From: Bacteroidales bacterium
GTDB taxonomy: Bacteria; Bacteroidota; Bacteroidia; Bacteroidales; Muribaculaceae
Direction of reading: 5' to 3'
DNA length: 35,518 nucleotides
Assembly: GCA_020860445.1 (NCBI GenBank)
Contig: JAJBUH010000003.1
Location: forward strand, 1 to 35,518
Shown here: one piece after another, positions 28,651 to 35,468 of the stretch
Layout of the letters: every line of letters begins with the position of its first letter
Position numbering within the stretch: the stretch's first letter is position 1
Position numbers and translations under genes: made by a program
The notes under the pieces: generated by a model
Told to the model about the DNA's origin: nothing
The model's input: the letters and a program-made list of their open reading frames with translations, nothing else
The model's database searches: none

Positions 28651-28998
28651 CTGGTCGCCTCGGAGAGGCGGTACTTTTGTTTATCGGAAATACCGCCTCT
28701 CCGAGGCGAATAGTCTATTTATCAGCACTTTCTTTCTACCCCACCCAGCGTCGCTTCGCTCCGCTGAGTGGGGTTAACCAAATACCGCCTCTCCGAGGCG
28801 ACCAGGAGCATACAGGCTCTCCCCGGATGGCTACCCCGTAGGGGTTGTTTCATTTAGCGTATAGGCTATCCCCGGATGGCTACCCCGTAGGGGTTGTTTC
28901 ATTCACTTGACTATCGGAATGAAACAACCCCTACGGGGTAGGAGGGGGGCGTCGCGCCAATAGCTAGATGAAATAACCCCTACGGGGTAGCCATCTGG
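28651..28998. repeat. Island of several palindromic repeat families
   Basis: A ~350-bp gene-free stretch between the riboswitch and the ABC permease gene holds three families. (i) GCCTCTCCGAGGC-core palindromes at 28651-28673, 28691-28709 and 28783-28805 (another at 35322-35342). (ii) The CCCCACCCAGCG hairpin at 28736-28775, identical to 25-64. (iii) Four copies of a unit with GGCTACCCCGTAGGGGTT: two direct (28811-28854, 28860-28902) and two inverted (28918-28941, 28968-28998). These look like REP/BIME-type dispersed palindromes. No coding sequence is evident. Confidence 0.9.
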
Positions 28999-29010
28999 TA
29001 CATTTGCAAT

Positions 29011-29163: not shown

Positions 29164-31764
29164 ATGGAGAGAATAAAAGAAATATGGCTGCTGATATGCG
29201 CCAATAGGGTGAGCAGCGCCTTGTATATCGCGGGCGTGGCCCTCGCTGTGACTGTCTCGATGCTTGTGGCCATCGTCTGGCACGTCAAGCTGTCGCCAAT
29301 GTACCCCGAGGACAATCGAGCCCGCATCGCCTACCTCACCGAACTCGAATGTGTCGACGACACCGACGGCGATACCAATTCGGTCTCCTGGGGCCTCGGT
29401 CAAGGGACCATCCCGCTCTTCACCGACAGCGTTGGCGAATGGACTGAGGCGATTGGCATCGTGGCAGATTTGCGCGATCGCTTTGCCCATGTGATAGCTC
29501 CGGAGTGGGAGATGGATGGAGCCGTCAAGTTTGTCAACCCCGGATTTTTCAAGGTCTTCAACTACCAATTCCTCTCCGGTTCCCCCATCACCGAGCAGCA
29601 ATGGGCCAATCAAGAGCACATTGCCATAATCGATGATGACATGGCCCGGCAATTATTCGGCAGCGTTGATGCCGCTGTGGGGCAGATGGTCGATATCGAT
29701 GGCGTACAGTCAAAAATCACTGGCGTGGTGGCCCATGGTTCTACGCTGCTGCCCACGAGCTATGGCCAGATTTTCCAGCCCTATTATGTCAAGGATGTCT
29801 CAGAGGAGGAATATATGGACGCTGCGGTTGGGCCATTCCAACTCTTTTTCCTGCTCAGACCGGGAGCCAAGTTCTCTGACTTCAAAGAAGAAATGCAAAA
29901 TCGAGTGCGCCGAGTCAATTCCGCTGCTGAGTCTCGCACTCTCAATATCAAGAGCGGTCCGATGAATCACAAGCAATATGTTTCCGACGAGATTTTCTTT
30001 GACAATGGCAATTCCTTCTTGCTCGTATGCGTATTGGGCATAGTGCTATTGCTCGTGCCGGCCTTCAACCTTTCTGGCTTGATCCTCGAGGCCAATCATC
30101 GGCGCAATCAGGAGCAGGGAATCCGCAAATCATTTGGCGCATCAAAGCGCCATCTGCAGTGGGAGATATTCGTTGAGAATCTGTTTCTTACGGGCATCGG
30201 CGCGGCGATAGGCTTGGTGCTGGCATGGATAGTGGCTTGGGCCTGTCGCGACTGGATGTTTGACATCTTCAACTACTTTGGCGATTTTGAGAGCGAGAGA
30301 TTTGTCACCAAGGTTACCGCACCGATGCTTTTCTCTTGGCGAGTGTTCGCCATAGCCGTGCTGGCAGCCTTGCTGCTGAATATAGTGTCGTCGGTGATTC
30401 CGACTTGGCTGGCATTGCGGCGCCCGATCGTAGACCAACTGCACGATGCCGCTGGTCGGGATGACAGTTTTGGCTTCTGGCGCCGCTATGGAGTCAATGC
30501 GCTGGTGTTTGCCGAGATAGTGCTGATAGTGCTGCTGTCGTGGGCCATTCTCGACAATCTTACGGTGCGCACCTACGATTCCTACCAGCCTCTGGGCTAT
30601 GATTACGACCGCTTGGTTGATGTGACCTTCAATTCCTATCCGGCAGCCTCGGCCGCTTATCATGAAGAGGAGGCCGATTCGGCCGCCCAAGTGCAATCGG
30701 CATTGGCATTGATGAATGTGCTGTGGAATATGCCTGAGGTGGAGTGTGGGACATTTGTTAAGTCGTACACTCAATTTGAGTGGCGAGGAAATAGCAGCAG
30801 CGCTTTTGTCGGCTCTGATACCACTCAGCGACATATTGCCATAGATATCATAAATTATCCCTACGGCGGTGACTTCTTCGCTACAATGGGCATTAGGCCA
30901 ATAATGCCAGAAATTACCCCGGCACAGCTCGACCGCCTGCCATTGGCGCCCGATGAGGTGGTGATTACTCGCGATGCGGCCCTCAAAGGCTATGGACGAA
31001 TCGATGTGGTGGGCGACACTATGAAATCCAACTATCAGGGACCCAAGATAATCAGAGCGGTGGTTGAGAATGTGCGTATCAAATCGTTTATCAATAGTAA
31101 GTTGGTGCGGTTTCTCCCTGATTTCTACCATCCTACGCTTTATTCCGACAGCCGGCGGCTTAAGACTGAACCCACTATCATACTTAGGATGAAGGAGGGA
31201 GTACGTCCGGCGGATTTCATCAAGAATCATCAAACCGAACTGATGCAGTCGCTCAAAGCTGGCAATTATTACTGCTCGGGAGTATACGATTTTGATATGA
31301 AGACGCTGAGAGTTAAGAACTCTTACGGCATCACCAACACGATGCGAGTGAATGTGATATTGGCACTGTTTCTTGGGGCAAATGTTTTCCTCGGGGTTGT
31401 GGGCACGTACTATCTGCAGACGCGGCGCCGCAGCCACGAGGCTGGGTTGCGCAAGTCGTTTGGCGCCACCTCGGGGCGCATTACTCGGTCGCTGATGGCC
31501 GAGGGGATGGTGCTTACCTTCCTGGCCTGGGTGATTGGGTGCGTATTGTACTGGGCGATTGTTGGGCGCCATGGGCTGACTCTGAGCATGGGCGTTTCGT
31601 TTAGCACGATGCCCGACACATGGGTCTATCATTATTGGCAGCATTTCGCGGTCATCTCGGGCATCGTGCTGATAGTGATGCTTGTTGCCACCCTCATAGG
31701 CATCTCAGTCCCCGCTTACCGCATCAGCCGCATCACCCCCGTCGATGCCCTCCGCGACGAATAA
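29164..31764 (+). CDS. MacB/FtsX-family ABC permease, double-length
   Basis: An 866-residue inner-membrane protein built from two MacB-type halves. Half 1 has a TM near 15-40, a periplasmic MacB core (~45-280), and three TMs with the FtsX motif NHRRNQEQGIRKSFGASKRHL. Half 2 has a TM at ~445-465 and a periplasmic part. Its three C-terminal TMs carry TRRRSHEAGLRKSFGATSGRI (quoted in part), ending in the family tail RISRITPVDALRDE. About eight TMs in total. Such permeases usually pair with a LolD/MacB-type ATPase and act as mechanotransmitters or exporters of lipoproteins, peptides or toxic compounds. The cognate ATPase follows, with a 212-bp inverted-repeat element between them. The substrate is unknown. 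Confidence 0.9.
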   Translation: MERIKEIWLLICANRVSSALYIAGVALAVTVSMLVAIVWHVKLSPMYPEDNRARIAYLTELECVDDTDGDTNSVSWGLGQGTIPLFTDSVGEWTEAIGIVADLRDRFAHVIAPEWEMDGAVKFVNPGFFKVFNYQFLSGSPITEQQWANQEHIAIIDDDMARQLFGSVDAAVGQMVDIDGVQSKITGVVAHGSTLLPTSYGQIFQPYYVKDVSEEEYMDAAVGPFQLFFLLRPGAKFSDFKEEMQNRVRRVNSAAESRTLNIKSGPMNHKQYVSDEIFFDNGNSFLLVCVLGIVLLLVPAFNLSGLILEANHRRNQEQGIRKSFGASKRHLQWEIFVENLFLTGIGAAIGLVLAWIVAWACRDWMFDIFNYFGDFESERFVTKVTAPMLFSWRVFAIAVLAALLLNIVSSVIPTWLALRRPIVDQLHDAAGRDDSFGFWRRYGVNALVFAEIVLIVLLSWAILDNLTVRTYDSYQPLGYDYDRLVDVTFNSYPAASAAYHEEEADSAAQVQSALALMNVLWNMPEVECGTFVKSYTQFEWRGNSSSAFVGSDTTQRHIAIDIINYPYGGDFFATMGIRPIMPEITPAQLDRLPLAPDEVVITRDAALKGYGRIDVVGDTMKSNYQGPKIIRAVVENVRIKSFINSKLVRFLPDFYHPTLYSDSRRLKTEPTIILRMKEGVRPADFIKNHQTELMQSLKAGNYYCSGVYDFDMKTLRVKNSYGITNTMRVNVILALFLGANVFLGVVGTYYLQTRRRSHEAGLRKSFGATSGRITRSLMAEGMVLTFLAWVIGCVLYWAIVGRHGLTLSMGVSFSTMPDTWVYHYWQHFAVISGIVLIVMLVATLIGISVPAYRISRITPVDALRDE

Positions 31765-31779
31765 CCCGTCATTTTAAAT

Positions 31780-31991
31780 ATGGATTTTAACCACAGATTT
31801 ACACAGATTTACACAGATTCCTTAGATGGTCACATTTATATTTCATAGAGCACCAGAGGTGCTGACAGATTCCCACAGACCATCCGGATGGCATCTGTGG
31901 AAATCTGTCGGCGCTACTGCGCCTCTCTGAAACGATTGATTCCCATGGCAGAATCTGTGTAAATCTGTGTAAATCTGTGGTTAAAATCCAT
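31780..31991. mobile_element. MITE-like element with 41-bp perfect terminal inverted repeats
   Basis: The ends (ATGGATTTTAACCACAGATT... and its exact complement) are perfect 41-bp inverted repeats built from ACAGATTTAC-type units. The ~130-bp interior has nested palindromes AGCACCAGAGGTGCT and CCATCCGGATGG. There is no ORF and no clear target-site duplication. It lies between the permease and ATPase genes, occupying most of their 261-bp gap. A ~115-bp inverted partial copy is at 35351-35468, and a shorter hairpin relative is at 32776-32843. It is probably a non-autonomous or REP-like element moved by a transposase encoded elsewhere. Confidence 0.82.
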
Positions 31992-32025
31992 TACTATAGC
32001 TTAATTTAAAAATTGTGCTTTACTT

Positions 32026-32700
32026 ATGGATATTATAAAGTTGAGCGGTGTGCGCAAGGTGTATCGCACACGGCAGATCGAGACAAGAGCGCTCGATAAT
32101 GTGAATATTTCGGTGCCCGAGGGGCAATTCGTGGCAATCATGGGCCCTTCGGGCTGCGGCAAGTCCACGCTCCTCAACATCATGGGTCTGCTCGACCGGC
32201 CCACTGCTGGCAGCGTTGAGATTGGGGGCATCCGCGCCGACGCCCTCAAGGATTTGGCTATGGCGAGGTTTCGCAACGAGAATTTGGGATTTGTGTTCCA
32301 GAGTTTCTACCTAATCCCCCAACTCAATGTGCTGCAAAATGTGATGGTGCCGCTGCAATACCGAGGCGACATGTCGGCAAGCCTGCGGCGAGAACTCGCA
32401 GCTGAGGCGCTGCATCGCGTGGGCCTTGATGCTCGCCTTAGGCATTACCCTTGGCAATTGTCGGGTGGACAGAGCCAGCGCGTGGCGATAGCTCGCGCAA
32501 TAGTTGGCAATCCCAAGATAATCCTGGCTGACGAACCGACCGGCAATCTCGACTCTCGTATGGGCCAGGACATTATGGATCTGCTGCATGGGCTGAATCA
32601 GCACGAGGGACGCACCATTGTGATGGTGACACACAATGAGCGCCAAGCCAAGGGAGCCGACCGCATCATCCGCTTTTTCGATGGCCGACAGGTGCAATAA
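32026..32700 (+). CDS. LolD/MacB-type ABC transporter ATPase
   Basis: A 224-residue cytoplasmic ATP-binding subunit. Walker A GPSGCGKST (40-48), Q-loop FQSF (Q92), signature LSGGQ (145-149), Walker B IILADEPTGNLD (from 165) and an H-loop VTHNE are all intact. Length and sequence fit the LolD/MacB/FtsE group that energises MacB/FtsX permeases. It is probably the partner of the double permease upstream, although the inverted-repeat element separates them. A new promoter for the regulator genes lies just downstream. Confidence 0.95.
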   Translation: MDIIKLSGVRKVYRTRQIETRALDNVNISVPEGQFVAIMGPSGCGKSTLLNIMGLLDRPTAGSVEIGGIRADALKDLAMARFRNENLGFVFQSFYLIPQLNVLQNVMVPLQYRGDMSASLRRELAAEALHRVGLDARLRHYPWQLSGGQSQRVAIARAIVGNPKIILADEPTGNLDSRMGQDIMDLLHGLNQHEGRTIVMVTHNERQAKGADRIIRFFDGRQVQ

Positions 32701-32775: not shown

Positions 32776-32843
32776 AACCACAGATTTACGCAGATTTACA
32801 CAGATTCCTCCTATGGAAATCTGTGAAAATCTGTGGTTAAAAT
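32776..32843. repeat. Short hairpin relative of the MITE-like element in the regulator leader
   Basis: AACCACAGATTTACGCAGATTTACACAG... faces GAAAATCTGTGGTT, so the transcript leader can form a long hairpin. It sits between the promoter and the regulator start. An ATG at 32766 opens a 24-codon ORF through the hairpin, ending at TAA 32838, in the same frame as the regulator. This looks like an insertion into the original 5' end of the gene. Confidence 0.75.
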
Positions 32844-35342: not shown

Positions 35343-35350
35343 TGTCCCAG

Positions 35351-35468
35351 ATGCCATCCGGATGGTCTGTGACATCTGTCAGCACCTCTGGTGCTCTATG
35401 AAATATAAATGTGGCCACATAAGGAATCTGTGTAAATCTGTGTAAATCTGTGGTTAAAATCCATATTT
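35351..35468 (-). mobile_element. Partial inverted copy of the MITE-like element
   Basis: Reverse complement of the left ~115 bp of the 31780-31991 element, including the whole 41-bp terminal repeat (35424-35464), the AGCACCTCTGGTGCT palindrome and CCATCCGGATGG. The other end is missing or replaced by the GCCTCTCCGAGGC palindrome. It follows the histidine kinase stop. The last ~50 bp of the window hold nothing recognisable. Confidence 0.85.

Follow-up and report, generated by a model that had tools for sequence, protein, structure and literature searches.

The window, the whole stretch of 35,518 nucleotides analyzed here from a gut Bacteroidales bacterium of the family Muribaculaceae, carries a 212-bp element between the genes for an FtsX/MacB-like ABC permease and an ABC transporter ATPase (Table 1). 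Its two 41-nt arms are 100% complementary and enclose a spacer of 130 nt, and each arm consists of a leading stretch followed by three 10-bp units. As DNA, the element folds at -72.1 kcal/mol, compared with -20.4 +/- 2.8 for shuffled sequences (z -18.5), and as RNA at -117.9 (z -15.5); the predicted DNA shape is a cloverleaf, in which the long outer stem leads to two side hairpins and to an apical stem whose tip is self-complementary. The 212 bp contain no open reading frame, leaving a short, non-coding, gene-less element with inverted ends. When 15 long copies of this genome were aligned and six copies were read in its sister species, Muribaculaceae bacterium Zag1, the repeat family proved to exceed 212 bp: AT-rich outer arms, whose ends read TAAGTAA..TTACTTA in the copies of Zag1, extend the window copy to about 31762-32026 (~265 bp). 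With these outer arms, the element takes up the entire space between the two genes, beginning at the stop codon of the permease and reaching the ATG of the ATPase. The perfect 41-bp inverted ends and nested inner palindromes reported in the initial annotation are thus confirmed, and its 212-bp extent holds for the core, but three things escaped it: the 10-bp units, the AT-rich outer arms, and the connection with GxxExxY genes. Upstream of the permease, at 28810-29000, the window contains a further palindromic repeat, CCCCGGATGGCTACCCCGTAGGGGTTGTTTCAT, whose copies run in both direct and inverted orientation and which is also found at the matching place in Zag1.

Table 1. Features of the 212-bp element, its host genes, and its further copies in the window
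Feature	Position	Strand	Remarks
FtsX/MacB-like ABC permease, 866 aa	29164..31764	+	Host context
Left AT-rich outer arm	31762..31779	.	Starts at permease stop TAA (31762-31764); copy alignment; TAACCCGTCATTTTAAAT versus consensus TAACCTGTCATTTTGAATTTAAAT
Left 41-bp arm	31780..31820	+	ATGGATTTTAAC, then CACAGATTTA CACAGATTTA CACAGATTC; arms co-vary between copies
Side hairpin 1, GCACCAGAGGTGC	31850..31862	.	Fold and co-variation (two pairs changed on both sides)
Apical stem, GACAGATTCC..GGAAATCTGTC, tip CCATCCGGATGG	31864..31909	.	Fold; GxxExxY gene at tip in some gene-bearing relatives
Side hairpin 2, GGCGCTACTGCGCC	31910..31923	.	Fold and co-variation
Right 41-bp arm	31951..31991	-	Perfect reverse complement of left arm
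Right AT-rich outer arm	31992..32026	.	Ends TTTACTTA; final A is the first base of the ATPase start codon (32026); copy alignment
ABC transporter ATPase, 224 aa	32026..32700	+	Host context
Short copy, same 10-bp-unit arms	32776..32838 (about)	.	Between ATPase and response regulator
Truncated long copy	35345..35464	-	After histidine kinase gene; full copy in Zag1 at same site

The genome search that the initial annotation had proposed showed the element to be multicopy rather than single-copy: the two strands of its own genome together gave 83 matches, at about 40 similar places, and about 17 further places have CACGAAGG-type arms. The dispersed partial copies that it had described are likewise present, as the short and truncated copies in the window. 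All 17 long copies examined (13 in the source genome and 4 in Zag1) are intergenic. Zag1 is the nearest named relative (permease 92% identical), and it differs from the source genome at several of these sites. Its permease-ATPase gap keeps both genes and holds a different GC-rich stretch in place of the element, so that the site is not conserved; the gap that holds the short copy measures only 47 bp in Zag1; and a long copy of the source genome (L009:3590-3827) corresponds to joined flanks, that is, an empty site. Six near-identical copies in Zag1 suggest recent spread, and strong matches were confined to the source genome and Zag1, with 8 of 118 relatives matching the element at all. The single clean empty site revealed no clear target-site duplication, its flanks being A-rich and repetitive, and no transposition event was observed. 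Being multicopy, intergenic, and present or absent between sister species, the element bears out the MITE-like half of the earlier reading. A tandem row of four element copies was also seen on Zag1 contig C97 (92-1088).

These comparisons bear directly on whether the element could serve the transporter operon as an attenuator or a conserved functional RNA. While the very stable RNA fold, the co-varying arms, and the way in which the element fills the stop-to-start gap would all suit such a role, its absence from the Zag1 gap in which both genes are kept, the unrelated genes that adjoin the some 40 copies, and the failure of any Rfam family to reach its cut-off (the search returned sub-threshold hairpin matches only, nothing near the gathering score) make this explanation hardly credible.

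REPs are tied to a RAYT, and the other half of the earlier reading, a REP-type element mobilized by such an enzyme, did not hold up. A REP/BIME-type element moved by a RAYT (TnpA-REP) would agree with the palindromic, intergenic nature of the repeat and with the one clear Y1_Tnp gene of the genome (PF01797, at locus L050; a borderline match at L051 was left out), but this gene is bracketed by its own repeats, GTGCGTAGCACGG, which have nothing in common with the 212-bp element. In addition, a palindrome of 20-40 bp is expected of the REP class, and at 212 bp or more the element is far longer; a family-B copy does lie about 650 bp from the RAYT-type gene, but beyond another gene. We therefore regard mobilization by a RAYT as very unlikely. 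The L050 locus itself (1300-2160) has a RAYT-like gene at 1456-1935 between the inverted repeats GTGCGTAGCACGG and CCGTGCTATCGCAC, with CCCCACATGGAGTGCGTAGC units, and may be a candidate RAYT/REP system separate from the 212-bp element.

Across 21 copies, 89.6% of the compared cells pair, and 64 cells are changed on both sides, compared with 35 +/- 4 after shuffling and no more than 32 in controls that were slid. Pairing is maintained, and because the copies are related, this does not indicate the force behind its maintenance. One candidate is palindrome correction in a repeat that grew with no dedicated enzyme, through slippage during replication and template switching at hairpins. Gains and losses of 10-bp units between arms (L016, L019, L009, and L014), tandem arrays (L043, L235, and Zag1 contig C97), and the lack of a detectable target duplication are consistent with such growth; slippage alone, however, explains neither dispersal to unlinked sites nor the presence of a nuclease gene between the arms of related copies, and we consider it distinctly improbable as the full account.

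This nuclease gene belongs to the GxxExxY family (PF13366/TIGR04256; PD-(D/E)XK nuclease fold), and several loci tie it to the element. In another genus of the family (L235), a GxxExxY gene sits directly between AACCGCAGATTAAACAGATT and its inverse, near-identical CACAGATT-type arms, and in the source genome (L043) the stop codon of a GxxExxY gene runs into CACAGATT units and arms at a contig end. Both the source genome (L042) and Zag1 (L108) have a GxxExxY gene between CACGAAGG/CACGGAGG-type arms that end with CCATCCGG at one flank of the gene and CCGCATGG at the opposite one, and a gene-less CACGAAGG-type copy in Zag1 (L220) has outer arms that resemble those of the CACAGATT type. At a further Zag1 locus (L150), a complete TACACAGATT-subtype element is followed by a GxxExxY gene and then by a half element starting CCGGATGG. 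The element's own genome yielded no intact copy with a gene inside exactly the CACAGATT cloverleaf. Since the 212-bp element has the inverted arrays of ~9-10-bp units that mark the proposed GxxExxY-hairpin class and lacks the GxxExxY gene between its arms, we read it, from these sequence comparisons, as a non-coding sibling rather than a gene-bearing member of these hairpins. It was also observed that L043 and L150 hold GxxExxY genes that are 54% identical beside the same lpdA-like gene in the source genome and Zag1, with differing arm types, which points to turnover at one site.

PF13366 genes were gathered from relatives, and their upstream and downstream flanks were compared as inverted pairs. 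In the first set, 33 of 69 GxxExxY loci exceeded the 99% point of a null built across loci, as did 25 of 34 loci of the IVP comparison genes and 1 of 46 controls, the sole positive control (L059) being itself an element locus. A second set, fetched afterwards and scored alike, had 37 of 84 loci beyond the 99% point of its own null, a threshold that is inflated because relatives share arm families, and 56 of 84 above the first threshold. With the cut-off of 18 taken from the first set, the pooled data place 89 of 153 GxxExxY loci above it versus 2 of 112 neighbor genes in the same loci (Fisher p 1e-25, in a test that treats loci as independent and ignores kinship between them); none of 30 permease loci exceeded this score. 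The letters of the arms vary by genome (CACGAAGG, CACAAATT, ACGAATTAC, ACATAAGA, and others), while the design, tandem units of about 8-11 bp, is common to them. A global lag analysis placed lag 9 above background for GxxExxY and lags 7 and 14 for IVP, and we relied on the flank-pair scores instead because the control set of the lag analysis contained element loci. No general enrichment of the CATCCG tip motif was found beside GxxExxY genes. Genes of the IVP family (PF05635) at L045, L046, L047, and L170-L199 often lie between inverted arrays of ~7-8-bp units as well (19 of 34 above score 18), and the IVP loci that were read are not obviously inside rRNA.

The residues G-x-G-x-x-E-x-x-Y, D, and E-x-K are invariant in 11 GxxExxY sequences, as expected for a PD-(D/E)XK nuclease. 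The best hit of a PDB sequence search was T7 endonuclease I, a four-way-junction nuclease, at a non-significant E value of 0.46-0.9, and this likeness is only a hint. The three GxxExxY genes of the source genome pair with the three of Zag1 at 45-61% identity, versus 92% for the permease, which would reflect fast change or replacement. Because about 40% of GxxExxY loci fall below the threshold and a viral contig (L222:668-4179) has a GxxExxY gene without arms, the gene may be a passenger. That viral gene has an hsdM-like gene and an hsdS-like gene of type I restriction on its two sides, and its structure prediction (pLDDT 50) was not used. It was the one GxxExxY gene found in viral contigs; two further queries found none, and there was no exact match to the arm-plus-tip pattern in these contigs.

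It is in this light that an ordinary MITE has to be weighed, one that an unrelated transposase of the DDE or HUH type mobilizes in trans, with GxxExxY as a hitch-hiker that lands in palindromes. The multicopy, intergenic distribution, the terminal inverted repeats, the polymorphism between sister species, and the occurrence of GxxExxY outside arms all agree with it. We nevertheless consider it unlikely, as no clear target-site duplication was seen at the one clean empty site, ends made of tandem 10-bp units are unusual for IS ends, and GxxExxY lies between paired arms far more often than neighbor genes do.

Our results lead us to conclude that the 212-bp element is probably a gene-less copy of a MITE-like hairpin family in which the arms are inverted arrays of short tandem units, about 9-10 bp each, and the gene-bearing forms hold one GxxExxY gene between these arms. 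The gene-less copies are most likely passengers of the nuclease-bearing form and would spread with the nuclease supplied in trans. The candidate nuclease may cut or resolve the extruded cruciform, and copying could then take place during the ensuing repair, a route that fits because the design is palindromic and no target duplication was seen. In the window the element landed exactly between the permease stop and the ATPase start, and any putative effect on the transcript, such as the uncoupling of ATPase from permease levels suggested in the initial annotation, would be a by-product. The gene may instead hitch-hike, or the repeat may have grown by template switching.

More tentatively, and with rather less confidence than even odds would warrant, we propose that GxxExxY genes and inverted short-unit arrays constitute a widespread transposase-less mobile class in Bacteroidales, spread by a PD-(D/E)XK nuclease acting on the cruciform of the element itself, with the 212-bp repeat as a non-autonomous form and the hairpins around IVP genes, including the rRNA intervening sequences, as a parallel class. 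The nuclease-like GxxExxY family is annotated, apparently without an explanation, and occurs in many genomes of the Bacteroidales. Should hairpin elements have these genes as their coding part, the family gains a role, and a large class of palindromes that lie between the genes of gut bacteria would be accounted for; such hairpins would also offer a parallel to the old puzzle of the 23S rRNA intervening sequences that bear open reading frames.

Prokaryotic MITEs have been reviewed (PMC10969869), and one example, BrickBuilt of Porphyromonas gingivalis (PMC4596501), is likewise from the Bacteroidales. Like the element described here, these repeats are short, multicopy, and intergenic, with inverted ends and strong secondary structure. 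BrickBuilt, however, consists of tandem repeats 23 nt long and has small inverted ends (PMC4596501), whereas the arms here are inverted arrays of 10-bp units; the gene-bearing relatives of the element, unlike BrickBuilt, carry a PD-(D/E)XK gene, and target duplication was not seen here. REP/RAYT systems (PMC3733652, PMC3686654) resemble the element as many-copy intergenic palindromes, REPs being 20-40 bp long (PMC3733652). In the portions of the literature that our searches reached, including searches by repeat letters or PDDEXK_3, no description of arms flanking GxxExxY genes was found, and GxxExxY (TIGR04256, PF13366), to which the gene-bearing members of the proposed element family belong, is a name used there for a protein family only; the addition made here is to associate its genes with hairpins. 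The 23S rRNA intervening sequences with an S23/IVP open reading frame, such as the Coxiella IVS (PMC4990558; PF05635), differ from the 212-bp element, which lies between protein genes rather than in rRNA, has another unit length, is gene-less, and is related to another protein family, but they share with these hairpins the complementary ends and, in the loop, a small open reading frame.
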